From IMG/VR virus record IMGVR_UViG_3300023109_003296, positions 1-64,000 of that record: DNA of 64,000 bases. One strand, written 5' to 3'. The stretch's first letter is position 1, and each line of letters starts with the position of its first letter. The notes beneath the pieces are model-generated. The model made no database searches, was not told the DNA's origin, and saw nothing but the letters and a program-made list of their open reading frames with translations. Below are positions 3,696 to 63,300 of this stretch, in pieces. Both the position numbers and the translations under genes were made by a program. Origin of the DNA: a virus.

Positions 3696-3696
3696 A

Positions 3697-4762: not shown

Positions 4763-4765
4763 AAA

Positions 4766-32603: not shown

Positions 32604-32618
32604 TAACTATTATTTTAT

Positions 32619-33185: not shown

Positions 33186-33187
33186 AA

Positions 33188-33910: not shown

Positions 33911-33911
33911 G

Positions 33912-42683: not shown

Positions 42684-43004
42684 ATGACATCAATTATTAA
42701 TGAATTATTGAATATTGACAGGGCTTACCAAGACACAACAAACTTGGTAAAAAGCAGCGATGACGTTTATACCGTTGAATTTGAACTTGCTGGATTTTCC
42801 AAAAAGGATGTAAAGATTACGGTTTGTGATGAAGTCTTAACAATTGAAGCTGAAAAAAGTGGTAAAAAGAAAAAGACCCACAAGGTTTATCTAAAAAACC
42901 TAGTTTCGTTGGATGGTATTTCATCTAAAATGTCTGATGGGTTGTTAACAATAACAATGCCAAAAAAAGAAGTAAAAAAAACCTTAACCATTAACGTCGA
43001 TTAA
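42684..43004 (+). CDS. Small heat-shock protein, Hsp20/alpha-crystallin family
   Basis: 106 residues. The alpha-crystallin domain is complete: YTVEFELAGFSKKDVKITV with the D-x-P-G-like start, LTIEAEKSGKKK, then LVSLDGISSKMSDGLLTITMPK, where G-L-L-T-I-T-M-P is the family's end-of-domain signature. The N-terminal arm is very short (about 25 residues). No I-x-I tail motif apart from LTINV. It is an ATP-independent chaperone, known in marine phages, possibly for folding large virion proteins. Confidence 0.9.
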   Translation: MTSIINELLNIDRAYQDTTNLVKSSDDVYTVEFELAGFSKKDVKITVCDEVLTIEAEKSGKKKKTHKVYLKNLVSLDGISSKMSDGLLTITMPKKEVKKTLTINVD

Positions 43005-43657: not shown

Positions 43658-46552
43658 TTAAGGCATTTCTATTATATCTATATTATTTCCAGAAAAATTC
43701 CATGCGCTATTATAATTTCCAGATTGTCCATTCGGTACGTAAATCTCCGTCAATGCTGGCATTGAATCAAAAGCAGTAGTGTCATCGAAACCTCCTCCAA
43801 ATGTAGGAGCAGGTCCCATAAAGAACAGTCCAGACAAACTGTTACATCTAGTGAATGGATTGACACCCCATTTAGTGACCGTTGAAGGAATTGTTACCTC
43901 TTTGAGGTTTGTGTTTGGATTAGAACTTTCCATTTGTAAGAAATATGAAGGTATATTTTCCAAACCTTCGTTCAAATAAACTCCGCTTATTGTCCTGTTC
44001 TTGCTAAATGAAAAACCCCCCATACCTGTTAACGAAGTGGGTGTATTTATTTCTCCTATCATGCATGACTGAAAACAATAACCAGGTATATACTCTAATC
44101 CATTATTGAAATTCACCACACTTAAGTTTGGCGAACTAATAAACGCTCTAGAACCAATCCCTGTTAAAGAAGCTGGCATTGTAACTTCAGTTATATTATT
44201 GCTTAAAGCAAAGCAGTTGGCTTCTAATTCCGTTATTGATGAAGGTAAAGTTATGCTTGTAAGATTATTACCATAAAATGCACTATTTTTAATCCCTGTT
44301 ATTGTAGATGGCAAATTAATTCCACTAAGTTTTGGACAGTAAGAAAACATGTTATCTCCAATATATGGTATTCCCTCGCCCAATGTAACACCACTTAAAA
44401 GAGAACAAGAAGTAAAAGATCTAGGATAAATATACTGTAAGCTACCCCCTAAGTTTACACTTGATAAGTTTGTACCATTAAAAGAACCGTAATAACTTTG
44501 ATAACTCACATATCCATCTAAACTCTCTATGTTTGGCAAATCAACATGACCAATATAAGGGTTTTGATAGAAAGCATGTCCATCTATTGTAGTTATAGTG
44601 CTTGGTAGATTAATATCTCCACTTATACCACATTGACGAAAAGCCTCTCTGCCTATTCTTTTTACTCCTTCTTGGATAAATACTCCAGACAAAGAATTTG
44701 AACCTTCAAAACAGTAATCATGAATACCATCAGCACCTGAAATCGTTCCTGGTATAGTTACTTCTGTAAGAGAATCGCAATTAGCAAAAACGCTGGAGGC
44801 TAATTTTTCTAATTGATTTAAATCTAAACCACTTAAAGATGAGCAATTACTAAACACACTATATTCCATCTCTTTTAAAGAATCTGGTGCATGAAACCAC
44901 TCAAGACCATTACACGAATTGAATGCTGAGTATCTTATAACCTCTAAAGAGTCCATTCCTTTTATTTCTTTTAATCCATTGGATGAGCTGCAAAATTGTG
45001 GAGGAATTTCCGTTATTAAAGGAGGAATAGTTATCTCTAATAACGAATTACAGAATTTGAAAGTGCTACCATCACCTAATGTTGTAAGACTATTAGACAG
45101 TCTAACACCAGAAAGAGAACTGCAATTATAAAATTGATTGCTTCTATTAAAATTATCTATATACTCCAAATCAATATACAACAAATCTGAACACGAAAAA
45201 AAAGTGTTTCCTCTAAGTTGAGATTGACCAGAAGACATGCTTACCCCACTTATATTTGTATTCTCCCAACAATTTGCACCCATATAAGTTACACTGTCTG
45301 GAATATCAATAAAACCACTAATATTGCTATTAATAAAAGCACTGAAATCAATTGCAGCAAGTGTTGATGGGAATTCAATTGTTTTCAAGCTATAGGTATT
45401 TTGGAAACAACTATTTCCAATATATGATAAAGTATTACCTAAATAAATACCAGAAAGAGAATCGCAGTTGCTGAAACAGCTTTGTCCCAATGATCCCATA
45501 TTATCTGGAAGCTCTACGTATTCAAGAGATTCACAATTATAAAAAGTAGAATCACTTAAAGATAAAACGTTGTTAACTGGATTAAACACAACCTCTCTAA
45601 GACCAGTGCAATCTTGGAAACAATTTATACCAATAGTTTCAAGGCTTGAAGGGAAATACAAACCAGACAAAACATCACAACTAAGAAACGCATTACTTCT
45701 AATTTCTTCAAGCCCCTCGTTAAAGGTAACCCCGCTTAAGTCATCACAAGCATTAAAAGCATTTTCACCTATCCCAGTAATATTTGAAGGTATTTCGACG
45801 CCACTTAAACTAGTACAACCATAAAAACCGTATCTATTAATAAATTCTAACCCAACACCGAAATTAACATAAAGAAGATTAGTATTACCATAAAAAGCAC
45901 TAGCTCCTAAATAAGTTAAACTATCAGGAAGTGTAACCCCAGATAAAGAATAACAATAACCAAAACCAGTTATCCCTATATATTCCAATGTATTAGGTAA
46001 ATTCAATTCCAAAAGAGACTCACAATTTTTGAAAGCTTCATATTCAATTCTGTTCAATGAACTACCAAGGTTGATCCCCGTAAGAGATATACAATCATTA
46101 AATGCTCTCGGTCCCATATCTTCAACAATATCCCCACAATTAACATAATTAACATTTGAGCAAGTTGCAAAACAATTATTACCTATTTCTAAAACTGAAT
46201 CAGGGATTTGTATTGAGGTTATATTGTCACAATTATAAAAAGTAGAAGTTTGCAATACAGATACGCCACTGCCTAGAGTTAATACCCCAGGCATTCCCGC
46301 ACTAAAAAAAGCACTAGTACCAATATTATTAACACTATCGGGTATTGTTATAGGGTGTTTAATTGACTCACATCCTTTAAATGCAGATCCTCTAATTTCC
46401 TTTAATCCTTCGTTCAAATCTACACTTTTCAACTTTGCGCAATCTAAAAAAGATTGCGTTCCAATACCAGTAAGTCCTGACGGCCAATAAAAAGTCTCTA
46501 AATTTATGCACCCGTTAAATGCATTATTATCTATGTGTGTTATAGTATTCAT
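43658..46552 (-). CDS. BspA-type leucine-rich repeat protein, second half of a split protein
   Basis: 964 residues made wholly of LRR_5 (BspA-like) repeats of about 23 residues, pattern L-x-x-I-x-x-x-A-F-x-x-C-x-x-L-x-x-V-x-L-P-x-x-(V/L). It begins mid-repeat (MNTITHIDNNAFNGC) with no N-terminal domain, and ends with the family's C-cap (IYVPNGQSGNYNSAW, then IIEMP). Its ATG overlaps the TGA of the preceding gene, whose product ends in the same repeat array. It is very likely the continuation of that protein. The solenoid should be a long, curved beta sheet, extracellular, suited to binding. Confidence 0.85.
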   Translation of the reverse strand: MNTITHIDNNAFNGCINLETFYWPSGLTGIGTQSFLDCAKLKSVDLNEGLKEIRGSAFKGCESIKHPITIPDSVNNIGTSAFFSAGMPGVLTLGSGVSVLQTSTFYNCDNITSIQIPDSVLEIGNNCFATCSNVNYVNCGDIVEDMGPRAFNDCISLTGINLGSSLNRIEYEAFKNCESLLELNLPNTLEYIGITGFGYCYSLSGVTLPDSLTYLGASAFYGNTNLLYVNFGVGLEFINRYGFYGCTSLSGVEIPSNITGIGENAFNACDDLSGVTFNEGLEEIRSNAFLSCDVLSGLYFPSSLETIGINCFQDCTGLREVVFNPVNNVLSLSDSTFYNCESLEYVELPDNMGSLGQSCFSNCDSLSGIYLGNTLSYIGNSCFQNTYSLKTIEFPSTLAAIDFSAFINSNISGFIDIPDSVTYMGANCWENTNISGVSMSSGQSQLRGNTFFSCSDLLYIDLEYIDNFNRSNQFYNCSSLSGVRLSNSLTTLGDGSTFKFCNSLLEITIPPLITEIPPQFCSSSNGLKEIKGMDSLEVIRYSAFNSCNGLEWFHAPDSLKEMEYSVFSNCSSLSGLDLNQLEKLASSVFANCDSLTEVTIPGTISGADGIHDYCFEGSNSLSGVFIQEGVKRIGREAFRQCGISGDINLPSTITTIDGHAFYQNPYIGHVDLPNIESLDGYVSYQSYYGSFNGTNLSSVNLGGSLQYIYPRSFTSCSLLSGVTLGEGIPYIGDNMFSYCPKLSGINLPSTITGIKNSAFYGNNLTSITLPSSITELEANCFALSNNITEVTMPASLTGIGSRAFISSPNLSVVNFNNGLEYIPGYCFQSCMIGEINTPTSLTGMGGFSFSKNRTISGVYLNEGLENIPSYFLQMESSNPNTNLKEVTIPSTVTKWGVNPFTRCNSLSGLFFMGPAPTFGGGFDDTTAFDSMPALTEIYVPNGQSGNYNSAWNFSGNNIDIIEMP

Positions 46553-48135
46553 GGATTGGTCGTTGTCACTGAAGTTAAACTAGTACAGCCTTGGAAAGCA
46601 CCTTGAGATATAGAAAGCAAATTAGCATCAATGACAAGAGATTCCAAATCATCGCAATTCCTGAAAGCTTTATTACCCATACCTGTAATGTTTTGCGGTA
46701 TGAAAAGTTGTCCAGTTATTTCTAAGTGTTCAAAGGAACTTTCACCTATTGTATCTACTAAACCTCCAAATGCTATTGACCTTAAATTATCATGTGGACC
46801 ATAAATTGGATTTTGAGGGTAAGGTGGATTAATAGGATTATTCATTTTCCAATTATATGGTATTGTAGTATCGAAAGTATAATCGATGATAACATTGCTT
46901 GGCCCAGAGAAGATTCCTGAAGCTGATTCTGCATTTCCATCATACCCATCATAACCATATACTCTGGTTGGTACCTGATCACTTACAGGGCAAGCTTCTT
47001 TTGGTCTATATCTCGACTGAGCATCACATATAATACCTACAGAAACATCTTCAGAGTCTCCTATATCAACTTCAAAAACCAGATCTACAGACTTACTAGG
47101 GCCTATATTAGAAGAAAAATTCTCTGACAAAAGAACTGGTTTTATAAGAGTCCACTTTATTGCATTTTGGTTTTCACAGTCATTTGCTGAAATTGATATT
47201 CTATTACCAAAACCTCCCTCATGACACCTCCTCATTGATTGTGCTAGATCTACAGTTTCAATATTTGACAGTATGGCATTTACGGATAAAGTAGCTCTTA
47301 TTGGATATTCTACAACTCTAGCATATACTCCCTTTGTACCTAAACGTCTTAATTCCTCTCTTGGCATAGGAATTGATAGGTTTGCACTTTGAAGGTGAAA
47401 AGAACCATTGCCACTTGTTTTAGATATAGATTCACCACTTATAACACCATCCAAACCTTCAAAAGTTAAAGTTATATCTCGAGGTTTCAATGCAGTTGGA
47501 CCGCCCTGCCCAGTATTATATGGAGGACATAGTGTAGCCCTGTAACCATCTTCTGAGTATGGTCTAGCGTTTTCCATATTAATAGAGGGTACATCTGCGT
47601 AAATATCAGTTCCCCAAGTACCCTCCCCACTTACAACGGTATTTATACAGTTTATATTTGAACCTTCGCAAGATACATTTACAGTAGGTAAAGATCCAAC
47701 GGAAAGGTCCACGGAATAGTTAGTAATAAAAACATTTCCAATTCCCATGATACTTATATCATCCCCATAATCTAAATCAACGGAATCCAAGCCCTCATCA
47801 GAAGTCAAAATATACAAATTAAAACCATTATTATCTTCTATGTGTTTTTTCGAAAACTGGAATGATTCTTCGACATTAAAACCCAAAGCTTTTTCGTTTT
47901 GTCCGTCACTCAAATAATAAGAAAAATCAAAATTAACTGTAGGCAAATCAAGTATAGAGTCAATTCTAGAAGAGAGACCATACTGATTCACATCAGTTTT
48001 ATTCATAGTAAAGCCATAATTACTACTTTGAATTCTTATCAACTCACAGTGATTCAAATTAGAGGTAGAAAATATGTCATCACTAACATAAATCGACTCT
48101 GATTGATAGATTACCCTGTTTCTTGATTTCTTCAT
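46549..48135 (-). CDS. Tail-tube-like protein entering an LRR array
   Basis: 528 residues. Residues 1-410 are the same domain as the N-terminus of the 3172-residue protein, with IGNVFITNYSVDLSVGSLPTVNV, then YARVVEYPIRATLSVNA. The domain also matches the 273-residue gene at 59536, so three copies exist. The last 80 residues form about three LRR_5 repeats (LFIPQNITGMGNKAFRNC). It has no C-cap: the repeat run breaks at GCTSLTSVTTTNP and picks up in the next gene by ATGA overlap. Likely a virion tail protein of the tube or tip. Confidence 0.75.
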   Translation of the reverse strand: MKKSRNRVIYQSESIYVSDDIFSTSNLNHCELIRIQSSNYGFTMNKTDVNQYGLSSRIDSILDLPTVNFDFSYYLSDGQNEKALGFNVEESFQFSKKHIEDNNGFNLYILTSDEGLDSVDLDYGDDISIMGIGNVFITNYSVDLSVGSLPTVNVSCEGSNINCINTVVSGEGTWGTDIYADVPSINMENARPYSEDGYRATLCPPYNTGQGGPTALKPRDITLTFEGLDGVISGESISKTSGNGSFHLQSANLSIPMPREELRRLGTKGVYARVVEYPIRATLSVNAILSNIETVDLAQSMRRCHEGGFGNRISISANDCENQNAIKWTLIKPVLLSENFSSNIGPSKSVDLVFEVDIGDSEDVSVGIICDAQSRYRPKEACPVSDQVPTRVYGYDGYDGNAESASGIFSGPSNVIIDYTFDTTIPYNWKMNNPINPPYPQNPIYGPHDNLRSIAFGGLVDTIGESSFEHLEITGQLFIPQNITGMGNKAFRNCDDLESLVIDANLLSISQGAFQGCTSLTSVTTTNP

Positions 48136-51100
48136 GTTACTGATACTATTTGAGCGCCATTTGGTAAATTTTGTCTTCCACTAAATGTCGGATTATTATA
48201 TTCATTATATACACTACTATGTACAAAAAATTGAATATTGTTGTTTGTGCTAAGAAAATTACCTGTGCCTTCAAAAATTCCAGTTCCTACGTTTTCAGCA
48301 ATGAATACTAGCGATAAAGAGGTAGAGCTATCAAAGTTTCCTGTTCCCATTGTAGCGTTTGTATCTGTTGTATCTATATACAACTCGGTCAAGTTAGCGC
48401 AATTTTTCCAGTTAGCGTTTCCTATTGTTCCACTAAATCCAGCCCCTATCCTCAATGTTTGAATCCCCAAAGAATCTTGAAAGTTCGAATGATTCATTGA
48501 TTCTAAAGTGCTAGGTACTACAAACGGCTGAGTATCGAAAACCAGGTTTCCAAACTTGCGAGATCCCATCCAGTTATAATTACCTATTGTTTTTAAGGTC
48601 GATGGAAACACAACATCGTCTACTGTAGCATCTCTCCAGTTACCATAATCCATGCTAATAAGACCCTCTGGCAAATCACAACTGCGAAGAGCATTCGAAA
48701 ATCTAAAGTTTTCATAAGTCATTGTTTCTAATGAATTATTTGGAATATAAACTCCGCTCAATTTGGGGCAAGAATAAAAATTCCTATCTTCCCATGTAGT
48801 GGCATTAGGAGCAATTTTAACTTCTTCTAATTGAGGGCATTCTTTAAAATCTTCATTCAGGTGTCCAGTGAAGCTTGTGCATTGAGAAAAATCAATACCT
48901 GTTAAATTTGACTTATAAAAAGTGTTTCCATAAAAACCGTTCCGTTCATTGTCAAGCATACCTATCTTTTCTAAGCTGCTAGGAAGAACTATTCCACTAA
49001 TGTCAGCTTCATAAAATGCTCTATAACTAATAGTATCAACTGAATTTGGAAGTGTAAATGGTAAATTTCCAACCCATGCACCTTCAAATGCACTTTGATG
49101 TATTCTTTCTAAAACAAAAGTATTAAATGTAAAACCAGTTATCCTAGCGTCTTCAAATGACGAGTAGTCCATGACTGTAGTATTAGCCCTCCAATCCAAA
49201 TTGTTTATTATCGATTCTTGTAGGACACTGTAACCAACATTCGTAATACTGGAACAAATTTCTAAAGTATCAATACTTGTGCACTGTCTAAATGCTCTAT
49301 CTCCAAGTGTTTGCAGTTGAGAGTTGCATAGAAATATATCTGTTAAATTAGGATTTTCTCTAAAAGCATAAGCTCCTATAAAATCAACATCTGTTGACCT
49401 AATATCAATTTCTGTAAGACCGCAATTATCAAAAGCTCCATATCCAATACTTGTCATTGCTCCATTATTAGGAAAAGTAACACCAGTTAATTTAGTACAA
49501 CCCTGAAACATCTTCGGGGCGACGGTTGTTATAATGTCTGGGTTTTGCCAAACAACAGACTCAAGATATGGCATGTCTGCAAAAGTAGAATAATAACCAG
49601 GATCAAGTCCAATTTTTGGTAAATTTAACACTCCAGAATGTTTGTTGTATTGAAAGCCTTGATACCATAATCTTTGAGGATTAGCAGTGCTAGGCGAACC
49701 AAAACTAACTTCATTAATTACAGAAGAAAAATCAAGAGTCCAATCAGAATTGTAAAACGCCTGTGTCTTAACTTCTCTTAATCCAGAATCAAAAACCCAA
49801 GTCCTATTGGCTCCTGATCCAGTTTGACGAAAGTTGCTAAAGCATCCAGTTTCAAAAACTTCAAAATTGATATCTGTTAAGTAAAGATTGTTAACTTTGG
49901 CAGAAGCTAGAATCTTTTCATTCATTGTTTTTGAATACTGAGGTCTTGATGGGTCTCCAGACCAATAAAAGTCTTTTGATTCAATTCCATAAAATGCACC
50001 AGTTCCCAAACCAGAAACCCCAGCATGCAAGTAAAAGTCAGCGTCCCTCATATATACATAGTAGAAAGCTGCCTCGCCTATCTCTTCTACACCGCTAGGT
50101 ATTATTAAATCAACTTGTAATCCACTATATCCGTTGGAATGGAATTGTCCAATAGGAGGATCACGATAGTAATCCCTACTACCTGCGTCATAATTAGAAG
50201 CTTCATAGAAGGTGCGATTTTCTATTCTTTTTAATTTGGAACCTGATTGGAATTCAATTCCAGTAAGAAATGCACATTGTTCAAACGCACCTTCACCTAG
50301 ATACTCCACTGAATTTGGTATTAAAATATTACCAAACTTATGTCTTTTAAAAGCATCATCAAAGTTTTCACAATTTTTATAAAAAGCGTAATCACCAATT
50401 CCAGTTAATCCTCCGTCAAGATCAAAAGTTCCACTATTTATAAAATGCTTGCGCATATCGTAAAACATGGAATTTTGTATGTAAAATGCATTTTTAATGT
50501 CTAATCCTGAAGTGTAAAATATATTTTTAAATATATCAACTCCACCATCACTTATATCCCATCCAGAAGGAAGTATTATTTTATCTGGATGCTGCCCATC
50601 TGGAGATTTGCCTATTCCTTGAAATGCTCTCGAACCTAGATATACATCTTGTGGTACATCAATAACATATCCGTCGTTATCATTTTCAATTCCACGAAAT
50701 ATTAAACAATCTCTAAAAGCATCTTTTCCAATCCCAGAAAGGTTATTCCATGACGTAAAACCTCTCAAAAATTCGCAGCTTCGGAAAGCTCCATCATTTA
50801 TAAGCTGTAAAGACTCAGGCATATTAACATAATCCCTTATCGATGATTGCCTGAAAGCATCAATCCCCAAATATTCTAAAGATTGTGGAAGAGTGATTGA
50901 ACTATTTATGTTGTCGCAATCAAAGAACGCTCGATAATTAATTCCACTTAATCCTTCACCAAATTGAATACCTGGCATATTGGCGCTCGTAAATGCTTGT
51001 TGACCTATATATTCCATGTTTTCTGGTAAAACAAGATTAAAAGCGTAATGACTGATCTGAGCGAACGCCTGAAGTTCTATTCTTTTTAGAGAATTTCCTG

Positions 51101-54100
51101 CAAAACTTATTCCTGGGCAACTCGTTAATCCATAAAATGAATAAGGCTGAATAGTTTCTAAAAGTGGCGGCATTTCTATCGGTTCATTTACATTTTCCGT
51201 AGAATAAAAAGCATAAGGCTCAATATCAGTAAGACCTGCCCCCAAGCTTATTTCCTGAAGTCCATTACAGTCATAAAATGCAGCATAACCAATATTAAAC
51301 ACAGAATTAGGTATAATAAGAGGACCTTGAAGCTGCCTACAACTAAAAAAAGCATAATCACCTATACCATCTACAACGACCCCCAAGTCTAACCATGCAT
51401 ATTTAACATCTGTTCCCGAAATATAGCCTTTTTTATTAGTGTCAATATAGTTTCCGTTAGCATTAAAAGGCACTTCTGTCCGAGGATAAGTCCGTAGACT
51501 GCCGTCAGCCCATCTAGTGGGTATTGAATAAGGCTGATTATTTTGAGCCTGAATGACTTCAAAGACTTCGGTTCTCTGATCATTCTTATCATTTATTCCA
51601 GGACCTAACCTTTGGTTAGTTGGTGTCGTGGCATCGTTGTTAATATAAAAAGTAGTGTTAGGATTTCCTACACCGCTAATTTGTATACCTTGAAAGTATG
51701 GTTTTCCGTTTATTAGTGTTGATTCAGCTAAATAATCATTATAGGTCAATGGTCCAACTTCAAAAATTCCACCTACTCCAGCAAATGCATCTTCCCCAAC
51801 AAAAGCATCAACTGGTAAAGTTTGAGTTAATACTCCACTTATTCCAGTGCAACCACTAAATGCATGAGATTCTATTCTCAACAAAAAGGATTTATCTAAA
51901 TTAATAATTCCCTCAAGACCAGTGCATCCTTGAAAAGCACCACTTCCAATCTCTTCTATAAGTGCAGGAATTTCAATTTCACTCGTTAAATTTCTACATT
52001 CAGCAAAAGCTCTCTCCCCTATAATCCTTAAACTATCTGAAATAATTAAGTCGCCATCAAAGCTAGAACAATTTTCAAACGCATAATTTCGGACATTTGA
52101 AACATTATAAGGTATAGTTAAATCACCAATAAGATTCGAATTGTTTCGGAAAGCGCCAGATCCTAAATATGAAGTTGTTCCAGGCAAATATAAATTACCA
52201 GTCAGATTGTAATTATCAAAAGCATTATCTCCTATGGTGGTAAATGGAGAAGTGTCAAACTCAAATTTTAAACCTATTGCAAAAGATTGAAAAGTATCAT
52301 AATCCTCATCAACTATAGCAACGGTTCCAGAGGGGACAAGAATGTTTGCAAAGTTTGTATTAAAGAAAGCATCGTTTCCAATAAACACTCCAGGCTTTAA
52401 TCTCAGGTCGCAATTTAAAGATGAGCAGTTATAAAAAGCCTCTTCCTCTATCAAATTTATATTTTCTGGTATTTTAAATACCCCATCATCATAACACTTT
52501 AAACTTGAACAATTCTTAAATATTCCCTTGGGTATTTGATCGACTCCACTCCCCAATATCAAAAACCCATCTAAAGAACTCATGTCCAAGAAGGCATATT
52601 CCCCCCAACTAGTAACTCTATCTGGTATACACAAATTACCAGTTAAATTTGAATTCCCTGCAAAAGCATAATCTCCGAAAACATCTAAAGAGCTTATTGT
52701 CACTACAAAAATATCTTCTAGTTCCCCATCGTCGTATACAACCTCAGTCAAATTACCAGAAAAACCAAATTCTAAATCTTCTGGCAATATGCAAAGCCTA
52801 AATTCACCATCTAAACTTGACATGTTATGAAATGCACTATGTCCGACTGCGTATGTTGTTTCTGGTATTTTTAAGTCGCCAGAAAGATTGCTGCATCCAG
52901 AGAAAGCATAATTTCCTATAGTTTCATTCAATAAAGGATCAATTGAAAACTCACCATTAAAATCCGTGCATTCTGCAAAAGCAGCATAACCAACATTTAG
53001 ACTAGGAATGTGAAGATCCCCAGTAAAGGAATTACCAGAAAAAGCATAGGCTCCAATTGTTTCTGAGTTTTCGTTTATAGTTAATTTGTTTTCAAATGAA
53101 TAATTTTCTACAAATGCATTTGCTCCTAAGGAGGAAGCAGAATTTGCTAAATATAAATCTCCCACCCAAAACTCAAAAGTGTCAAATTCAGTATCTTCTA
53201 TAAGAAAATCTGAAGAAGCTGCTCTTAATTGATAAAAATTAGTCCCATCAAAGACATTCAAATAAGAAGATATGGATCCAGCTGTAAGATCTGATATTTG
53301 CAAGTAACCATCAAGACCAGTACAATCAACAAATGCCCCGTCTCCTAAATTACTCAATAGACTCGGTATAATTAAATTTCCATTAAGACCAAAACAAGAA
53401 CGGAAAGCGTCTACTCCAACGCCTAATACCGAATCAGGTATAAACAAATCACCAATAAACCCATCACAATTCTCGAAAGCGCTGACACCAATACCAGTAA
53501 GCGAATCTGGAAGATCTATCTCACCAACAAAATTATAATTATCAAAAGCATTATCTAGTATTCCGCTAAGACCCTCTTGGAAAACAACTTCCATGCTTCT
53601 TGGCGCAAAATAATCAAATTCTCCATTGTTTATATTAGCAACAGATTCACTAACAATCAATGTAGCAAAAGGTGAATCATCAAAAGAATTAGAACCTACT
53701 AAACTCGAAGCCGTAACATTAGTGATTGTTATATCTCCACTTAAACCTATACAGCCTAAGAATGCATCTTGTTCTATGGATGTTATATAATCATGTACAA
53801 TAAGATTTCCACTTAATCCTTGGCAATTCTGAAACGTACCAGTTTTAACAGTTGTGTAGTCTTGGTTATTAGGCAGGTATATATTTCCACTCAAACTTGA
53901 ACACTCTGCAAAAGCGTATTGGCCAATACCACTTGTTATGTCCGAGAAGATCAAAGAACCATTCATACTTGAGCAATTATAAAAAGTATATTCCCCTATC
54001 TCTGTTACTGAAGTATTTAAAGTAAGAAATCCATCAACTGAGGTATTATTGTAAAAAGCTCCGTCTCCAATAAAATCTACATTTCTTAAATCTAAATCAC

Positions 54101-57100
54101 CATCTATTAAATTTAAATCATAAAAAGCATAAGGCCCTATATATGAAATATTAGAAGAAGAAAAGTCGTAAGTGCCTTCAAAATTACAACCAGAAAAAGC
54201 TGCCTGTCCTATGTAGTTTAATGAGAACGGTAATTCTAAAGATCCTATAAAAGAATAATTATCAAAAGAGTAACCAGAAATTACCTGCAGACCTTCTTGC
54301 ATTGTTAAATATAAAGGATCATCCTTGAAATAATCAAAATCCCCTTCGACAATAGTTTCTACAGAATCACTTATTATTAAGTCTGCAAACGGCAGTGGAT
54401 CATTAAAAACATCGACCCCTATATTTCTAGCTGCAATATTGGATATAGTAATACTTAGAGTCAAGCTTTCGCAACCCAAAAATGCTCTATCATCTATACC
54501 AAGAATAAAGTCAGGTATAACTAGCTCTCCCAAAAGACCAGAACAACCAAAAAACGTCTCTTCAAGAATATAATCAAATTCTCCAGCAGACAAATCAATT
54601 GTTGAGTTTAAATTTTTACAATTTTTAAATGCTCCAGAACCCAGGTAACCCACATTTCCAGGTAGCAATAAAGGCCCAGTCATTAATGAGCAGTCTTCGA
54701 AAGCATAATTACCTATGTATTCGCATTCACCTACATTTTCTAAGCCAAATTCCCCATCTAAACTTGAGCAGTTATAAAAAGCAAAATCCCCAATGTAATT
54801 GACAGGCGAGGGCAGATCCAAATCTCCAACTGCATTATTACAATTATAAAAAGCATAATCGCCTATACTAATTATATTATTACCAAGAAACAACTCTCCA
54901 GAAACACCAGTGCAATTATAGAAAGCCTCATCTTCCACAGTATAAACCTCTGAGCCTACGATGATATCACCATGTATATTACTACAGTTTTTAAAAGTTT
55001 TTCCTTTTATAACCTCTATGCCGTCCCCTATATCTAATAAATCATCAAATCCAGAACAGTTTTCGAAAACTCCACTACCTAAAGATATTACAGTGTCTGG
55101 TATTATTAGATCACCATCAAAATGACAATTATAAAAAGCATAATCTTCAATAGTCTCAACCTCTTCTGGCAACACAAAAAACCCTGTAATACCATAGCTT
55201 CCAGAAAAAGCTCCAGATCCAATATTTTTACATGTAGATCCAATAACTAAAAGAGCGTCTCTACTTTGATTTGTATACCAGTATGAAGGAATATCCCCTC
55301 TTATAAATTTTATAACTTCTGAAGTATTTGCATCATAAATAACAGTATCTAATGATCCGTAGCAAACAGGCATTCCTTGGTACAAACCAGCAGTCCCAGC
55401 GCTTAAGTAGTCGTTATAGTAAAAAGGAGAGACGAACATACACCCATTTACCCCAGAGAATGAATTACTTCCTTGAAATATCGTCACTGGAGAATTCATG
55501 TATACATCAGTAATTCCAGAGCACCCAAGGAAAGCTTGGTCTCCTATTGAGCTGACTCCACTCGGCATAGTCAAAGAGGAATTTAAAGATGCGCAATTCA
55601 TAAAAGCGTTATCTCCTATACTTTCAATACCTGAACTCAACGACAGTCTACCCTGCAAACCTGAGCACCCAGAGAAAGATGCGTCGCCAACAATATTGAC
55701 ATTAGGCAACATAAGGGAACCATTAAAAGATGAACATCCTTGAAAAGCTCCTACTTTAATTTCATTTACACTATCAGGAATAACTAAATCACCAGTCAAC
55801 GAGCTGCAATTATAAAAAGTATAATCTTCTATAGTTGTTAGTTGGTTGCTTAATGTAAGCTCTCCATTAAAACCTTCGCATTGGTAAAAAGCCTCTTTAC
55901 CTATACCAGAAATGTTATCTGGTATGGTTATTTCAAAACTTAAATTCCTAGCATTTTTAAATGTTTTTTCTTTTATCTCTTTTAAAGAGTTTCCTATATA
56001 AAGCCCCCCTATAAAACCACTGCAATTTTCGAAAGCGCTCTCTCCAAGTGTTAATGTAGTATCTGGTATATATAAACTTTGATTTAATCCAGAACAGTTG
56101 TAAAAAGCTCTTTCCCCTATACTTTGCACATCGGCCAGAAATAATGCTTCTGCGGAATCACACCCCATGAAACATTCTTCTCCTATATCTAGCACACTTG
56201 CTGGAATAAATATATTTTGCAAAGAAGAGCAATCTTTAAAACACCTTTCTCCAAAAGCTGGTATAACACATGAAGAGTCTGTGTAAAAAGAAGGTAAGTT
56301 AGAGCAACCGATAAAAACATCTTCGCCCATCGTTAATATTTGGGGCGGTAAATAAACAGGGCTATTTATATTAGTTGCATAAGCAAAAGCGCCATCAAAA
56401 ACATTGTAAGATCTTAATTCTCCAAAAGCAACTTTATATCCATTTAAATCACCAGATTGCCAATTACTAATAACATCATCCAATATGTATTCGTAAACTT
56501 TATTTTCATCATCTATAAATCTAGTAACTCCTATATCTTGTTCTGTTACAGATGTTTTAAACCCTTTGGTATCTGATATTTGAAAAGAAAATTCTAAGTT
56601 ATACTTTGTCTGTTCATTGACTAAAGTTTGATACTCAACATTTTCTAATTTTATATCTTCAAAATAAAACTGCGAACTTATTTGCTTTCTGCAATCATTA
56701 GTAATGATTCTTAAGTTTGATACTTCGTCACCATAAACCAAACCACTTATAAAACCAGCCTCCATCTGTGTTACCAAAGAAGAAATTGATAAAGTTCCTT
56801 CTATAGGGTATTCTATTTTTCTATCACAAACATAGTTGGAGCCAAGCCTATACACATTAGCCCTGTTAATAGGTATATTAACAGAAAACTCATCTATTCT
56901 ATGGCTTTGAAGATTTATCTTCTGACCACCTATAGATAGATTGTCCATTTCAAATTTAATATCGTAAGGAAGTATGGTTTCTATATCTGATCTATCAAGA
57001 TCGTATATATCCCCAAACTTTCCAGTCTCAAAATAATTAACATTACTTAAATTTATTGATCCAACGCCAATGTTATTACCTGATTTTAAGTTTATTGAGG

Positions 57101-57650
57101 GCGATTCAACCTGCTGGGAGAAATAATTTTCAATTTTTATATTAGAGCAATCAAACTCTACATCAACAGTTGGAAAAGATCCTACAGAAAAATTAACGCT
57201 ATAATTTGTTATATATGCATTGCCAATAGAAACAACCTCACCACCATTAGGAAAAGACGCTCCATTTTTTATGTATTCTGCTCCATCAAAACCTTGTTCT
57301 GGATGGTTGTAAAAATAAAAATTATTAGATACTTCAGACAAACCATTTAATATACTAAACTCTGGTTTATAATCTAAATTATAATTGAAACCAAAAAGCT
57401 CCTCGTTTGCAAAAGTAGGGGTAAAACCATAACTCATTTGCAGTGTTACATCTGGATGCCTTATTATGTTTTTTTCTTCATAAAGCTGACTTCCAATTTG
57501 CTCAACATCAGCCCTTACGTTACTAAAACCATAAGTAGCAGATCTTACACCAGCAAAAACAAATCCAGATTCAGTTGTCGTTTTGAATGATGGCGAATCG
57601 CCTATTATGACAACTGTATTTGCGCTATTTAATGTTACCCTGTTTGCCAT
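48132..57650 (-). CDS. Giant tail-tube-like protein with very long BspA LRR region
   Basis: 3172 residues, the largest gene in the window. Residues 1 to about 430 are the tail-tube-like domain (ITNYSVNFSVGSFPTVDVEF, LGSNYVCDRKIEYPIEGTL). The rest is LRR_5 repeats of mostly 23 to 25 residues, on the order of 100. The array is cut at least twice by C-cap-like segments (YNDYLSAGTAGLYQGMP and YNDYLAESTLINGKP, about residues 745 and 1930), so there are several solenoids in a row. The C-terminus has a cap ending SVYNEYNNPTFSG. No signal peptide. It should project from the tail as arms hundreds of angstroms long. Adhesin or shield roles are inferences. Confidence 0.85.
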   Translation of the reverse strand: MANRVTLNSANTVVIIGDSPSFKTTTESGFVFAGVRSATYGFSNVRADVEQIGSQLYEEKNIIRHPDVTLQMSYGFTPTFANEELFGFNYNLDYKPEFSILNGLSEVSNNFYFYNHPEQGFDGAEYIKNGASFPNGGEVVSIGNAYITNYSVNFSVGSFPTVDVEFDCSNIKIENYFSQQVESPSINLKSGNNIGVGSINLSNVNYFETGKFGDIYDLDRSDIETILPYDIKFEMDNLSIGGQKINLQSHRIDEFSVNIPINRANVYRLGSNYVCDRKIEYPIEGTLSISSLVTQMEAGFISGLVYGDEVSNLRIITNDCRKQISSQFYFEDIKLENVEYQTLVNEQTKYNLEFSFQISDTKGFKTSVTEQDIGVTRFIDDENKVYEYILDDVISNWQSGDLNGYKVAFGELRSYNVFDGAFAYATNINSPVYLPPQILTMGEDVFIGCSNLPSFYTDSSCVIPAFGERCFKDCSSLQNIFIPASVLDIGEECFMGCDSAEALFLADVQSIGERAFYNCSGLNQSLYIPDTTLTLGESAFENCSGFIGGLYIGNSLKEIKEKTFKNARNLSFEITIPDNISGIGKEAFYQCEGFNGELTLSNQLTTIEDYTFYNCSSLTGDLVIPDSVNEIKVGAFQGCSSFNGSLMLPNVNIVGDASFSGCSGLQGRLSLSSGIESIGDNAFMNCASLNSSLTMPSGVSSIGDQAFLGCSGITDVYMNSPVTIFQGSNSFSGVNGCMFVSPFYYNDYLSAGTAGLYQGMPVCYGSLDTVIYDANTSEVIKFIRGDIPSYWYTNQSRDALLVIGSTCKNIGSGAFSGSYGITGFFVLPEEVETIEDYAFYNCHFDGDLIIPDTVISLGSGVFENCSGFDDLLDIGDGIEVIKGKTFKNCSNIHGDIIVGSEVYTVEDEAFYNCTGVSGELFLGNNIISIGDYAFYNCNNAVGDLDLPSPVNYIGDFAFYNCSSLDGEFGLENVGECEYIGNYAFEDCSLMTGPLLLPGNVGYLGSGAFKNCKNLNSTIDLSAGEFDYILEETFFGCSGLLGELVIPDFILGIDDRAFLGCESLTLSITISNIAARNIGVDVFNDPLPFADLIISDSVETIVEGDFDYFKDDPLYLTMQEGLQVISGYSFDNYSFIGSLELPFSLNYIGQAAFSGCNFEGTYDFSSSNISYIGPYAFYDLNLIDGDLDLRNVDFIGDGAFYNNTSVDGFLTLNTSVTEIGEYTFYNCSSMNGSLIFSDITSGIGQYAFAECSSLSGNIYLPNNQDYTTVKTGTFQNCQGLSGNLIVHDYITSIEQDAFLGCIGLSGDITITNVTASSLVGSNSFDDSPFATLIVSESVANINNGEFDYFAPRSMEVVFQEGLSGILDNAFDNYNFVGEIDLPDSLTGIGVSAFENCDGFIGDLFIPDSVLGVGVDAFRSCFGLNGNLIIPSLLSNLGDGAFVDCTGLDGYLQISDLTAGSISSYLNVFDGTNFYQLRAASSDFLIEDTEFDTFEFWVGDLYLANSASSLGANAFVENYSFENKLTINENSETIGAYAFSGNSFTGDLHIPSLNVGYAAFAECTDFNGEFSIDPLLNETIGNYAFSGCSNLSGDLKIPETTYAVGHSAFHNMSSLDGEFRLCILPEDLEFGFSGNLTEVVYDDGELEDIFVVTISSLDVFGDYAFAGNSNLTGNLCIPDRVTSWGEYAFLDMSSLDGFLILGSGVDQIPKGIFKNCSSLKCYDDGVFKIPENINLIEEEAFYNCSSLNCDLRLKPGVFIGNDAFFNTNFANILVPSGTVAIVDEDYDTFQSFAIGLKFEFDTSPFTTIGDNAFDNYNLTGNLYLPGTTSYLGSGAFRNNSNLIGDLTIPYNVSNVRNYAFENCSSFDGDLIISDSLRIIGERAFAECRNLTSEIEIPALIEEIGSGAFQGCTGLEGIINLDKSFLLRIESHAFSGCTGISGVLTQTLPVDAFVGEDAFAGVGGIFEVGPLTYNDYLAESTLINGKPYFQGIQISGVGNPNTTFYINNDATTPTNQRLGPGINDKNDQRTEVFEVIQAQNNQPYSIPTRWADGSLRTYPRTEVPFNANGNYIDTNKKGYISGTDVKYAWLDLGVVVDGIGDYAFFSCRQLQGPLIIPNSVFNIGYAAFYDCNGLQEISLGAGLTDIEPYAFYSTENVNEPIEMPPLLETIQPYSFYGLTSCPGISFAGNSLKRIELQAFAQISHYAFNLVLPENMEYIGQQAFTSANMPGIQFGEGLSGINYRAFFDCDNINSSITLPQSLEYLGIDAFRQSSIRDYVNMPESLQLINDGAFRSCEFLRGFTSWNNLSGIGKDAFRDCLIFRGIENDNDGYVIDVPQDVYLGSRAFQGIGKSPDGQHPDKIILPSGWDISDGGVDIFKNIFYTSGLDIKNAFYIQNSMFYDMRKHFINSGTFDLDGGLTGIGDYAFYKNCENFDDAFKRHKFGNILIPNSVEYLGEGAFEQCAFLTGIEFQSGSKLKRIENRTFYEASNYDAGSRDYYRDPPIGQFHSNGYSGLQVDLIIPSGVEEIGEAAFYYVYMRDADFYLHAGVSGLGTGAFYGIESKDFYWSGDPSRPQYSKTMNEKILASAKVNNLYLTDINFEVFETGCFSNFRQTGSGANRTWVFDSGLREVKTQAFYNSDWTLDFSSVINEVSFGSPSTANPQRLWYQGFQYNKHSGVLNLPKIGLDPGYYSTFADMPYLESVVWQNPDIITTVAPKMFQGCTKLTGVTFPNNGAMTSIGYGAFDNCGLTEIDIRSTDVDFIGAYAFRENPNLTDIFLCNSQLQTLGDRAFRQCTSIDTLEICSSITNVGYSVLQESIINNLDWRANTTVMDYSSFEDARITGFTFNTFVLERIHQSAFEGAWVGNLPFTLPNSVDTISYRAFYEADISGIVLPSSLEKIGMLDNERNGFYGNTFYKSNLTGIDFSQCTSFTGHLNEDFKECPQLEEVKIAPNATTWEDRNFYSCPKLSGVYIPNNSLETMTYENFRFSNALRSCDLPEGLISMDYGNWRDATVDDVVFPSTLKTIGNYNWMGSRKFGNLVFDTQPFVVPSTLESMNHSNFQDSLGIQTLRIGAGFSGTIGNANWKNCANLTELYIDTTDTNATMGTGNFDSSTSLSLVFIAENVGTGIFEGTGNFLSTNNNIQFFVHSSVYNEYNNPTFSGRQNLPNGAQIVSVT
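48200..56370 (-). repeat. LRR-coding tandem DNA repeats
   Basis: A recurring 69-75 base unit, seen on the plus strand as TTATAAAAAGC followed 10-15 bases on by CCTATA; it encodes the AFYNC and IG-x-x-AF segments. Copies vary enough at the DNA level that the array is old, but short perfect stretches recur and could recombine. Confidence 0.8.
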
Positions 57651-57651: not shown

Positions 57652-59499
57652 TTATAAAACTATATCAAATACCAATTTCCCTGCTGAATCTTTAGCTTGC
57701 CAATACGCAGTATCATACCCTTCTGCACCTATTGGAACATGTATTTTTCTAAGTTTTCTCATAGTACTTAGAGGGAAGGGTTCGCCTACTATATTTGGAG
57801 CTAATGGAGCATTTATATAAATATTATACACCTTATCACAGGCACGAAATGCATTATTTTGTATTGTTTTTATTGTACTCGGGAAATTGACATCAGTACC
57901 AATCCTCTTACAATTCCAAAAAGCTTGCTCTCCTATTACTTCAACGCCAGAAGGTATATCTAAATCTCCATAAAGATTAACACAACCCCTGAAAGTCTGA
58001 TAAGGTATTTCTTTTAGCGTAGGAGGTATAGCAATTTTAGAGTTAATATTCACACAACCCATAAATACTGAATCACCTAAACCTGTAAGACTCTCTCCCA
58101 AACCTAGATCCTCATCAAAACCATCACAACTAGAGAACGCCTCGTCTCCAACATACCTTATATTAGGTGGCAACAAAAGAGGACCAGTCATTGAACCACA
58201 GTTATAGAAAGCTCTAGCACCTAACTCCAAAATACCCCCTCCTAAAATCAAAGAATTATTTAACCCAGCACACGAATTAAAAGCATCGTCACCTATTCCA
58301 GTAACACTTCCAGGTATATTCAATAACCCCTGCAAGTTAGGCGCTGATTCAAATGCGCTTTCTCCTATAAATTTACAACCAGCACCTATTTTCAAATCAA
58401 AAATATCGGGATCTAATTCGAACCAGTTTGGAGGTATATCTTCAGAAGCTTGAGCAAGTAAATTATCATCACCGCCAAACGCTCGTGAAGAAAGAGTTTC
58501 TTCACTATGTTTCACTCTATCGGGAACAACACCAAAAGGATCCTCATCAAGTTTCAAATCAAGGTTATGAGAATCAAAACTGTTCCAAGTATGTGTCCAC
58601 TTCCTACAGACATACACCTTAGGTCTATTAAATACAGTATTGATTCTATGCTTAAACCTCTTATACCCATTTTTAGACTCTAAAAAATGAAGCATAGATT
58701 TTAATTGTTTAGTGCTAATTTCTGAAAAGTTATATTGAAGAGGGAAAGAAGCACTGTTGTCCTTAACCTTTCTTCTGTAAGGAAATCCGTCTGAATCACC
58801 GAATCTTTGAGTTTCCATAGGAACCGTTGCCGACTGACCAACATCAGGTTGCCAAAAAAAGTCTCTAGTCCAGTAGGGGCTATCCTCAAGGCTTGTAGAT
58901 GTATCTTGAGAGGAATCGTGGTCTTCAGTGCAATAATAAAAATTATTTAACCTATCTTGATACTCAAATTCAAGTCTTTGGTCATAAGCTATATCATTTT
59001 CTTCGTATTTTTTATTTTCTTGAACATAATAAATACTTTCTTCCCCTACGTACAAAAAGTTCAAACCAGTCCAATTGAGGTGTCCAGGCGATTCAGTAAC
59101 TTCAAACAAAGCAGATATTTTAAATGTATCGACATCTAATTGAGTTACAGAGTATTCCGAGCAATACCCGTTAACTGGTTTATATACGGTAGGGTCTGTA
59201 TCAAACAAAATCGGATCGATCCCTCTTTTTGATTCAAAAAAATTAGCTAGTTTTCTGGCGTCCTCTTCTTTAGCCTCGTAAACCATCCTATAATTAGCAT
59301 AAACATTATTTATACCAACTGGCATTATATTCAACCAATTATTGTTAGTAGTTAGAGCCTTATCCTTGGCCAAAAATTCTACATTAGAACCTTCTGTAGG
59401 GCAAGTGATATCACTAATACCCTCATAATCCGTTACTCCAGAGAAATTTCTAGTTCTGTCGTAAAGTAGATCATCGCTATCTATGTCTATATAGGCCAT
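57652..59499 (-). CDS. Tail protein M-like, duplicated, with C-terminal LRR domain
   Basis: 615 residues. Two M-like segments: residues about 70-145 (LANFFESKRGIDPILFDTD, then a C-containing strand, then KISALFEV) and about 270-325 (LKSMLHFLESKNGYKRFKHR, then VYVCRKWTHTW). Lambda gpM (about 110 residues) has the same F-x-x-x-x-G-x-x-x-F core and joins tape measure to the tip. The last 250 residues are about ten LRR_5 repeats with a C-cap (LRKIHVPIGAEGYDTAYWQ). M is normally beside L, but here L lies on the other strand about 56 kb away in the window. No ribosome binding site seen. Confidence 0.7.
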   Translation of the reverse strand: MAYIDIDSDDLLYDRTRNFSGVTDYEGISDITCPTEGSNVEFLAKDKALTTNNNWLNIMPVGINNVYANYRMVYEAKEEDARKLANFFESKRGIDPILFDTDPTVYKPVNGYCSEYSVTQLDVDTFKISALFEVTESPGHLNWTGLNFLYVGEESIYYVQENKKYEENDIAYDQRLEFEYQDRLNNFYYCTEDHDSSQDTSTSLEDSPYWTRDFFWQPDVGQSATVPMETQRFGDSDGFPYRRKVKDNSASFPLQYNFSEISTKQLKSMLHFLESKNGYKRFKHRINTVFNRPKVYVCRKWTHTWNSFDSHNLDLKLDEDPFGVVPDRVKHSEETLSSRAFGGDDNLLAQASEDIPPNWFELDPDIFDLKIGAGCKFIGESAFESAPNLQGLLNIPGSVTGIGDDAFNSCAGLNNSLILGGGILELGARAFYNCGSMTGPLLLPPNIRYVGDEAFSSCDGFDEDLGLGESLTGLGDSVFMGCVNINSKIAIPPTLKEIPYQTFRGCVNLYGDLDIPSGVEVIGEQAFWNCKRIGTDVNFPSTIKTIQNNAFRACDKVYNIYINAPLAPNIVGEPFPLSTMRKLRKIHVPIGAEGYDTAYWQAKDSAGKLVFDIVL

Positions 59500-59535: not shown

Positions 59536-60357
59536 TTAAGGTAAGTTTTTTCTATCTCCGCCTAAATGACCTACATAAGATAAATTCATCAAAAGTTGCC
59601 CATTTACTCTCTGACTCAAGTTCCTAGATACCAAACTAGCATTTGGTATTTTAATGTATTGCAAAAGTGTTCCGACTCTGCTTTTTACATCTAAAGAAAT
59701 ATCCCTATCTTGCCTTCTGTTTAAAAAATCAAAACTCTGACTATTGTAAGTTTTATCTAATTCTAACTGTACTGACGCATTGTATTTCAAAGGTCTTTTC
59801 TCCTCGATGTTATATGGAAGATTAGATCCTATAGCGTAGGAAACTTCATGATCTATATTTACTGAGTAGTCAAAACCTACAACCCTATTCCCCTGAAAAT
59901 CTTCTGATTCTATAGATATGCTGTCTTGTGTTGGACTATTAACTACTGGGTGCGTTTTTTTGTTTACGAATTCTTTGTACCCACTTTTAATCTCATCTAA
60001 AATCAATAATGAATTATTAACTTTTGGCATCGAACCAACTGCGCAATTTACAGAATAACTCGATAAATAACCGCTTTCAAAACCATAATAACTATCATTT
60101 TTTAAATCATAAACCTGCCCATCAATGACCTTGTCTTTACCTATAAAGTTAAAGAATGGATCATTATAAATCAAACTTCTAGTTAATGACATTGTCTGCT
60201 GTACTGGCCCAGATGACACAGTAAGACCAGCTTCAGTCCCTATTGGGCTAATAACAGAAGCTGAATGTTTTGATGAGATAGATGCAGAGGAAACCCCTGT
60301 CAAATGATATCCATCTAACATCACATAAGATTCATAATCTAAAATAGCTCCAAACAT
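59536..60357 (-). CDS. Tail-tube-like protein without repeats
   Basis: 273 residues matching the N-terminal domain of the two LRR-bearing tail genes: FESGYLSSYSVNCAVGSMPKV, then SYAIGSNLPYNIEEKRPLKY, the counterpart of LGSNYVCDRKIEYPIEG. It ends at LGG without an LRR extension. It lies between the tape measure gene and the M-like gene, where many siphophages have a distal tail protein. It may be the basic version of the fold, with the two LRR proteins as decorated copies. Overlaps the tape measure stop by one base. Fold assignment is inference. Confidence 0.6.
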   Translation of the reverse strand: MFGAILDYESYVMLDGYHLTGVSSASISSKHSASVISPIGTEAGLTVSSGPVQQTMSLTRSLIYNDPFFNFIGKDKVIDGQVYDLKNDSYYGFESGYLSSYSVNCAVGSMPKVNNSLLILDEIKSGYKEFVNKKTHPVVNSPTQDSISIESEDFQGNRVVGFDYSVNIDHEVSYAIGSNLPYNIEEKRPLKYNASVQLELDKTYNSQSFDFLNRRQDRDISLDVKSRVGTLLQYIKIPNASLVSRNLSQRVNGQLLMNLSYVGHLGGDRKNLP

Positions 60358-63300
60358 TACCTAAGAGTTCCTCCTAATCTTCTTTCTTCCCTAAGGACCT
60401 CAAGAACTTTCTGTTTTATTGTCTTACCAAGTTCTTCCCTATACTTATTGTTGTTTGAGGCTCCTTTTTTCTCAACTGTAGCATTACCGTCGGGCCCTCC
60501 TGATGAACCGCCGCCACCACTATTTTCATTACCGCCACCACCTCCATTAACGGTAATGTTGATTTCACCATTATTATCTCTTGTTGCATTTAAGATTTCG
60601 TCCAACTTTTCAATTACTTTCTCTGAGTCTTCACCTCCCCCAGAGTTTAGATTCTGTAAATTATCAGCTCCTACTCTCTCTGTCGCAGCTCTATTTAAAA
60701 CGAACTCGCCACCAGTCAGCATAGTTTGCACGTTATCTATATTGGATCCTCCTCCAGTAACATAACCTCCTGTTGCCAAACTCTGACCAGATCCAGTACC
60801 TCCAAGGTTGTAACCCCTAAGGTTTAATAGACCTCCAGTATTAGTTCCAGATCCAGATGATCCTGGAGCACCACGAAGGAAGGAATTCCAAAAACCTCCA
60901 TTAGCAGCTACACCACCGTTGTTCATGGCTGCACCAATCCCATTTAACCCAGCGGTTAAACCCATAGTGGCAACACTTATTGCCAGCTGCGTAAGCAGCT
61001 GCTTCTTTCTTTCTTTTTCTTGTTTTTTGAGTTGCTCAACAAGCTCATTATATTCAGCAACTTGTTGTTGGTATTCTAGATTCAATCCAAAGGCTTGAGC
61101 TTTAGCATCTTGAGTAGCTCTTTGCAGAGGTGTTCCTCTTGTCCTACCAAAGTTTGTCAATCTAACACTTTCTGGTTCTAAGGATACCATTGAAGCTCCT
61201 GCCGCTTGATTTATAACATCATTTTGACCTCCAGTAAAAGCCTGTGTAGAAAAGTTAAGCAGGTTGCCAGCTCCTTCTATTTGACCTTGTCCATAAAGAC
61301 CAGGTATAATAAAATCCTGCCTACCTGTTTGAGGTGTCAAAGCACCTGATGGAGAACCAAATATATCTGTTGTTTTAAAGTCCTTTTCTTCTCTTGCAAA
61401 TGTAGCTCCAGGTACAAGTCCTCCTTTTGCATATTTCTTAACAGAACCATTATTTATAGCATCAAGGAATGATGTTCCAAAAGAAGAAACAGCATCTTTA
61501 GACATAACAAACTCCCCACCCATGAGTAAAGCTGGATTTTCTTTTTTGTCTTTTGATTCAGATACTCTTAAATTAGTCAACCTCTCATCCAATACACCTC
61601 CAAACTTCGGATCAAAAGATGTTCTTAAGCTGGATTCTCTCGTAGCTTTAGATGCCTCAATTCCAGACTCAGACCTAAACTTAACACTTTGATCTACTCT
61701 TTCTTTTTTTTCTTTAGCGTATTTGAAAGAATCTATCCATTTAGATGCAAAAGCTCCAGAATCAAATCTCAGATCTTTATTTTTAAAACGCTCTTCTAAG
61801 TTATAAACCTGACCTGAGTTAGCTGCTGGTGTGAATTTTGATGCAGTCAGTCCTGACTCTGTTCTGTTTTCTTCTTCCTTCTTTCTCCTTTTTTCGTTAC
61901 TCTCTCTTATTACGTCTGCTTTAGGAGTCCAGTCTGAAGACTTTAATCCAGAATCATTTCTCAATTCATTATTGTCTTCAAAACTTCTTGTCTTTTCTTT
62001 TGCATAATTAGCAGAATCTGTCCACTTGGAAATAAAATTACCAGAATCAGATCTCAATTCTCTATTCTTAAGTCTTTCTTCTTCTTTTTCTACATTAGAG
62101 TAGTTGGATTTAGAGGTCCAATTTGAAGCTACAATTCCAGAGTTAGTCCTCTCATTTTCTCTAGACTTATCAGAATCTTTTTTTGTTTCTCTTGCTTCCC
62201 TTGTTGCTGTAGATGAATTTGCCAGCGGTGTCCATTCAGAAGATTCAATTCCAGATTCGGTCCTAATCCTTATTCTTTCTTCTGTTTTTTTCTTCCTTGC
62301 TTTTTGTATGCTTGCTTCAGCAATCCATTTAGATGCTAGAACTCCAGATTCGGTTCTCTCCTCCTGATCTACAGTCCTCTCTTTATCTTGGTCTTGGTAT
62401 TTTGATGCCTTTGGTGTCCAGTCAGAAGCAATGATTCCAGATTGTGTTCTGTCAGATTCGTTAATACTTCTTCTGTAACCCATGTACTCATTAATAGGCT
62501 CGTTCGATCTTGCTCCACCAACCATACCTCCAGTAGCAAAACCTGTAAGATTCCCAGAGTTTATAGACTCCATCATCCCAGATCCATACTTTTGAACAGC
62601 ACTTTTTCTTATTACATACTCACCAGCCATTAAAACAGCTGGAACGTCATCTCTGACTCCAGATCCACCTGTAACACGACCAGGTACAGAACCACCTTCA
62701 TTAAATCCTATGGCTCCTAAAATAGGACCTAAGACAGGTCCAACTCCAGGTATAAGGCTTGCTAAACTGCCAATAGCTCCACCAAGAAAACCACCGCCAC
62801 CGCCAGTAGAGCCTTGTATACCTCCTCCGCCTCCGCCTCCGCCGCCATTAACGACATTAACAAAAACAGGATTTGATTGAGAACCTTTCGGTCCTCCGCT
62901 TTCGCCACCTAGACCTAATAAACCAGCTACACCACTTATATCTTTTCCGATAACACTGCTAATAGCCTTAAGAGCACCACCTTTTATGTCGATACCGCCA
63001 CTTTCACCTCCGCCACCTTCTGATGTCAAACCTTCCCCATCAGTTGATGTTACATAAAGCGGGCTACTTGAGGTAAGTCCTCTAGCACTATTTATCAAAG
63101 TAGCTCCTGCAGCAGATCCTGATCCTGCACCACTATCCTTTTGACCAAATATTGAACCAAGAATGCCCTGGAATCCACCCTCTCCTTGACCAAAGACAAC
63201 ACCTCTTAGTAAGTTTTTAAGCGAGGTTTTTGCAAAATCTTCTAAAAAGCTTGATGCAGCTTCCCTTAAGGTATCTCTAAGAGACTCCCCTTTGCTTATA

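Follow-up and report, generated by a model that had tools for sequence, protein, structure and literature searches.

A 3172-residue tail-tube-like ring protein with a giant leucine-rich repeat array, probably a long tail-tip arm of an uncultured phage

The window, 64 kb at the start of an IMG/VR virus record of 89,844 bases, encodes a protein of 3172 residues, g3172, in which a ring domain of the tail-tube type is continued by a giant array of LRR_5 leucine-rich repeats, and which is probably a long tail-tip arm gripping bacteria. Relatives carry the same type of arm on different tail-ring genes, and it therefore resembles a movable gripping device. The gene and its parts are as follows.

48132..57650, minus strand: complete g3172 of 3172 aa, a tail-tube-like ring protein carrying a giant LRR_5 array (open reading frame, Pfam, repeat profile)
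56535..57650, minus strand: g3172 aa 1-372, tail-tube domain (hhalign against the record's own tube genes; Foldseek)
55347..56534, minus strand: g3172 aa 373-768, LRR block 1, with start cap, 12 repeats and end cap (57-73% identity to orthologues)
51672..55346, minus strand: g3172 aa 769-1993, LRR block 2 (insertions of 650 and 1127 aa after aa 1892 in the two orthologues, G001 and G003)
48135..51671, minus strand: g3172 aa 1994-3172, LRR block 3, distal (20-41% identity to orthologues)

The sequence-only reading, which suggested a Pfam search and structure modelling as checks, had described a 3172-residue BspA-type LRR_5 protein whose repeat region is divided by internal caps, and our analysis bears this out. 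The frame opens with an ATG, has no internal stops and matches Pfam LRR_5 (PF13306) over 24 stretches with E=1.1e-293 and 956.6 bits, against a curated cut-off of 27.7. A repeat profile derived from the protein's own family scores 83 repeats between aa 429 and 3131, mostly spaced by 23-24 aa, compared with 1-9 windows above threshold in shuffled copies of g3172. About 2800 aa follow the ring domain and the LRR_5 repeats span ~2700 residues, the scaffold positions F, C, A, L, G and P being the most conserved within the repeats. Two cap motifs each recur at three sites, the end cap at aa 716-768, 1941-1993 and 3115-3172 and the start cap at aa 373, 768 and 2024, so that the array consists of three capped blocks. 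The cap profiles were made from window sequences and matches outside that set alone count as tests; such start caps are present in G015, L083, L069, L101 and the g273 fusion of G010. For aa 1-762, AF2 gives a model with a mean pLDDT of 81, in which most of the LRR part is close to 90 or higher; a second model, of aa 640-1835 and built from three sequences, has a pLDDT of 62 with weak stretches near breaks in the repeat register and is too poor to support statements about shape. The sequence is a metagenomic contig and repeats can mislead assembly, so that the giant frame might be an assembly or repeat artefact. This is very unlikely, however, as colinear orthologues of 3918 and 4393 aa lie beside the same neighbours in two other contigs, further ring-LRR fusions occur in others, and the repeats are too divergent for assembly collapse or duplication (no self-match of ≥40% over 80 aa).

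The claim that g3172 has a tail-tube-like start is supported by both profile and structure comparisons. Residues 1-372 align with the free-standing tube-like genes of the same record, which lie beyond the window at 74008-75156 and 75184-76308, with hhalign at 99.8% (E 5e-28), and with deeper profiles at 100% (E 8e-47). In Foldseek, the model of this region matches phage major tail proteins, and among solved structures the SH-Ab15497 major tail protein (8xan), 7qg9_G, the P74-26 tail tube and T5 pb6. The chain 7qg9_G has 298 residues, belongs to the T5 tail tip and, going by its length, is probably p140. The rings of T5 pb6 and p140 are trimeric and pseudo-hexameric because the tube domain is doubled (PMC10038345), and the alignment lengths suggest that the g3172 ring domain is doubled in the same way; a sequence test for internal duplication of the g3172 tube domain was not significant. 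The two free-standing genes (74008-76308 of record G000, L007:2009-4309) are adjacent and 58% identical to each other, and it is possible that they are two different major tube proteins, or a tube protein and a specialised ring. The tube domain of g3172 is also common to two other genes of its operon, g528 and g273, as had been proposed, at the levels given in the list of neighbouring tail genes below.

60357..64000, minus strand: tape-measure gene, 3' part, at the operon head (whole gene 60357-69884 of the record, 3175 aa)
59536..60357, minus strand: g273, tube-like ring protein without extension (hhalign 97%, E 2e-11, at profile level)
57652..59499, minus strand: g615, distal ring protein of the lambda gpM type ending in an LRR tail of ~270 aa (PF05939, 3.7e-13; LRR_5, 1.3e-54)
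46549..48135, minus strand: g528, close copy of the free-standing tube gene with the start of an LRR array (49% identity to the tube gene)
43658..46552, minus strand: g964, LRR array continuing that of g528 (ATGA overlap with g528)
1302..9739, plus strand: lambda-type tail-tip genes, L-, JAB/K-, I- and J-like (PF05100, PF14464, phrog_32 and PF13550; J also by tblastn)

On the minus strand the order is tape measure, g273, g615, g3172, g528 and g964, and since all junctions are ATGA overlaps or gaps of ≤36 bases the run looks like a single operon. Within it g3172 is separated from g615 by a 1-nt gap and overlaps g528 by 4 nt, in keeping with its earlier placement in a tail gene block: it is packed behind the tape measure and adjoins the gpM-like g615 and the tube-like g528. 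Promoter and terminator scans returned sites no more frequent than in shuffles. The array of g528 passes into g964 across the ATGA at 46549-46552 in a different frame, and the counterpart of the two genes in G003 is a single ORF of 1569 aa in which ~200 aa separate the matching parts. A gene split, reinitiation or an assembly indel could each possibly account for this break. We prefer reinitiation at the ATGA or a true gene split, having rejected a programmed frameshift on inspection by eye, as the roughly 30-nt overlap lacks a canonical slippery heptamer.

On the plus strand the tail-tip genes comprise an L-like gene (1302-3695), a JAB/K-like gene (3673-4122), an I-like gene (4115-4762) and a J-like hub gene (4766-9739). 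Together with g615, homologues of lambda M, L, K, I and J are thus all present, PF14464 covering the JAB part of K only. The L-like protein has 797 aa and PF05100 is limited to aa 48-206, so this protein too has a long C-terminal addition. Elsewhere in the window, a run of sugar genes at 29878-36003 comprises a GDP-mannose 4,6-dehydratase (Pfam E 8e-100) and, after it, one ORF resembling epimerases and several resembling glycosyltransferases, these last assigned by eye. Inspection by eye also suggests, at 17742-24080 and 42684-43004, a ClpA-like AAA protein, a protein of the DNA polymerase III alpha type that seems to be spread over at least two ORFs, and a protein resembling small heat-shock proteins. 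Positions 76382-79521 of the record (L007) hold four successive, mutually similar phosphotransferase/kinase-like ORFs (by eye, motif HGxxxxxN), a tandem family that is an unusual sight for a phage.

All relatives that we found are uncultured contigs. Profile searches of viral contigs returned 54 loci with the tube genes, 24 with the g3172 ring domain and 80 with the gpM-like domain, in overlapping sets; the g528 ring domain gave no match there as a lone-protein query, and a three-sequence profile succeeded. LRR_5 is present in 9 of the 38 records searched. The ring proteins are bare in most relatives, and in about ten an LRR array is attached to at least one of the four adjacent ring genes. 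Extensions of more than 60 aa are carried by 2 of 67 g273-like, 6 of 73 gpM-like and 15 of 63 g3172-like proteins (counts that cover 74 distinct gpM-like loci having a neighbour); one of the gpM-like and six of the g3172-like extensions are not LRRs, and two on g3172-like proteins (L068, L102) match LRR_5 weakly. Where the extension is an LRR array it is always C-terminal to the ring domain, and the same start-cap motif recurs; arrays occur on the g3172 ring in G001 (3918 aa), G003 (4393 aa) and G015 (1944 aa), on the g273 ring in G010 (1733 aa) and G016 (2671 aa), on the gpM-like ring (611-681 aa) and on the g528 ring (1569 aa). The relatives of g273 in G010 and G016 do, then, bear arrays, and in G010 the g3172-like protein is bare at 368 aa. 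On a tree of the gpM-like domain the ten LRR-bearing rows fall into few groups (2 changes versus 9.5 in shuffles); the trait is therefore clustered and the carrier gene varies inside the cluster. Because one branch is very long and part of the loci are fragmentary, we withhold an exact count of moves.

Additions of other kinds occur as well: the g3172-like protein of L117 (11005-13257) carries a C-type lectin domain, and ring proteins in L118, L138, L141, L087, L093 and L119 carry non-LRR additions of about 190-300 aa. Separate LRR_5 ORFs lie away from the ring genes at L066:2222-6494 (G015), L071:8488-10391 (G023) and L070:8089-10800 (G034); G023 has two of them, which are divergent and adjoin L-K-I-J-like genes, and in G034 the LRR is fused to fibronectin type III domains. 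Such separate ORFs, away from the tail operon, would suit a protein that is made alongside the tail genes and acts in or on the infected cell, outside the virion. For g3172 this is nevertheless quite unlikely, as many phages, and four different genes, show LRRs fused to a tail-ring domain, and as the g3172 chain opens with the ring domain and is without a signal-like start.

Comparing g3172 with its orthologues in G001 and G003 separates a conserved base from a divergent tip. The ring domain is about 71% identical, bins of 150 aa are 51-72% identical over aa 450-1800 and 20-41% over aa 1950-3150, and the large insertions listed above follow aa 1892. G001 and G003 are 64-88% identical to each other along their full length, so the tip, fairly conserved between these two, is not hypervariable everywhere. 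Between them, dN/dS rises from 0.07 in the ring through 0.09-0.15 in the proximal array to 0.24-0.29 in the distal part, values that are rough because synonymous change is close to saturation; every region is under purifying selection, which is weaker distally. The lower distal dS of G001 and G003 may mean that their tips are of more recent shared origin. The distal 1223 aa of g3172, used as a query, gave no relatives, and a recent internal duplication of the array was rejected on the same count of zero self-matches used above. As for the host, the terminase has only distant similarity to phages with mostly Gram-positive hosts and the J hub likewise to phages with mostly Gram-negative hosts, so we assign none. 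MAG contigs with tube relatives were discarded as host evidence, since they come from several phyla and may be mis-binned virus.

Taken together, we consider it fairly likely that g3172 belongs to the structure of the distal tail, as a tube-fold ring bearing LRR_5 side arms for adhesion. In favour of a place at the tail tip are the homology and tail-tube fold of the ring domain, the tightly packed genes behind the tape measure, the gpM-class neighbour and the arrays on different ring genes of relatives. In such a model the N-terminal domain would form a ring at the tail tip beside those of g615, g273 and g528, and the C-terminal 2700 residues of solenoid would point outward as long jointed arms of three capped blocks. 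By analogy with T5 pb6/p140 and P74-26, where the tube domain is doubled, the g3172 ring would be a trimer and would therefore bear three arms, each with a reach of roughly 40 nm at about 0.5 nm per repeat; g615 and g528/g964 may supply further arms. The arms would hold the host surface ahead of the action of the J-like hub. The conserved base with a divergent distal end and big insertions, a pattern resembling many fibres, counts for adhesion, as does the C-type lectin domain in the same protein of one relative; against it, faster distal change can equally reflect weak constraint. We know of no phage in which an LRR arm has been shown to bind.

The weak-constraint explanation belongs to a doubtful alternative in which the arms are a shield, collar or spacer round the tail tip without a specific ligand. 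Purifying selection everywhere that slackens distally would agree with this, as would the absence of arms from most relatives; however, binding is the better fit for a length of up to 4393 aa, for the capped blocks, for the lectin domain that a relative has in this position and for the known binding modules on rings of this class. Of the two functions that the sequence-only reading had left side by side, host binding is thus the better supported and shielding the weaker, because the base is conserved while the distal end diverges. It is improbable that the arms instead bind particles, mucus-like gels or the organism the host lives on and so hold the phage close to its prey: binding by LRR proteins is broad, but the arm would sit at the tail tip and not on the capsid, from which mucus-binding decorations are better known. 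In favour of such a role, a vibriophage for which LRRs are weakly predicted has been suggested to adhere to mucus (PMC10945359).

Beyond g3172 as an adhesive arm, we tentatively propose, with rather less than even confidence, a distinct class of adhesion device: single-chain capped LRR solenoids of up to ~4000 residues, portable as cassettes on any of four successive tail-tip rings and forming several tiers of arms, whose distal blocks diverge, insert and exchange to track hosts. The usual explanations of host binding by phages invoke small carbohydrate-binding modules, spikes or trimeric fibres. In this case the LRR solenoid, which in other settings is a recognition fold noted for its versatility, occurs as a giant single chain directly on a tail ring, and the series of bare, short and long forms on varying genes indicates that the array acts as a movable cassette. 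If the arm binds hosts, phage tails gain one more recognition fold, and these phages become a clear case in which to follow adhesion modules as they are acquired, grow longer and change place.

The repeats of g3172 belong by sequence and fold to the family of BspA-type surface proteins (4gt6, 4fs7, 4h09, PcpA 4cp6, TpLRR 6mlx). Unlike in those surface or secreted proteins they are fused to a phage tail ring and the array is several times longer, and in place of the adhesin setting of export signal and cell anchoring g3172 opens with a tail-tube domain in a tail operon. Phage proteins with an LRR or BspA annotation or match have been reported (Vibrio phage pir03 ORF 287, P. lipares, crAss-like cr272_1 and Lachnospiraceae phage PV036455), and we saw no ring-domain fusion in any of these four. 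The pir03 protein is a DUF285 match, the PV036455 gene lies outside the tail block, and the LRR prediction in vibriophage P. lipares, although within the tail module, rests on a 10% HHpred probability. The tube domain, the gpM-like ring domain and the capsid gave no match in a collection of isolate phages, and such LRR_5 matches as the phage collection contains are distant, most of them lying on gut-phage contigs without annotation. In the literature covered, which leaves out most subscription journals, phage LRRs appear only as annotations or very weak predictions and the ring-LRR fusion is undescribed. The claim that BspA-like repeats are without known precedent at this scale in a phage tail gene block consequently stands for isolated phages as searched; it does not extend to related uncultured phages, which have the same fusion, nor to decorated tail-ring proteins as such, which are well known.

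Compared with the lambda tip (gpM, gpL, gpI, gpJ), where gpM is a hexameric ring linking tube and tip (PMC10721106), the present phage likewise has PF05939, PF05100, I-like and J-like genes and a gpM-class ring by the tape measure; it differs in its added tube-like rings between or beside M, the LRR tail on M, the 797-aa L-like gene and the division of the tail-tip genes over two places and strands. T5 p140 is a tube-like protein of the tail tip, attributed to duplication of the tube gene, at whose level the side fibres attach; p140 itself is undecorated and the fibres (pb1 trimers) attach via the p132 collar (PMC10038345). Like p140, g3172 is a tube-gene paralogue coded among tail-tip genes, but in g3172 arm and ring form one fused chain; among the genes identified here, none is p132-like.

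Lactococcal 936/skunaviruses and streptococcal and Lactobacillus siphophages have evolved Dit proteins and CBM-decorated major tail or neck proteins; the carbohydrate-binding domains of evolved Dit are inserted in galectin-domain loops, and moving an evolved Dit into phages without it restored adsorption and full infectivity (PMC6669499, PMC10688798, PMC7291167). Here, too, bare and decorated forms of a conserved tail-ring protein coexist among related phages and modules sit on several different ring proteins; theirs aid adsorption, and for ours we infer binding. The evolved Dit architecture of a distal gpM-class ring behind the tape measure with an added module is found in g615 (PF05939 plus LRR). 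By contrast, g3172 is tube-like and not gpM-like at profile level, and what follows its ring is an LRR_5 solenoid at the C-terminus, which in this family reaches about 4000 residues; among the Pfam matches there is no CBM family, the added part being LRR_5, and the review consulted makes no mention of LRRs. Because it lacks a carbohydrate-binding module and its ring is tube-like, we do not file g3172 as an evolved Dit; by analogy it may be regarded as a variant of the decorated tail-ring proteins that would work like evolved Dit, its closest functional precedent.
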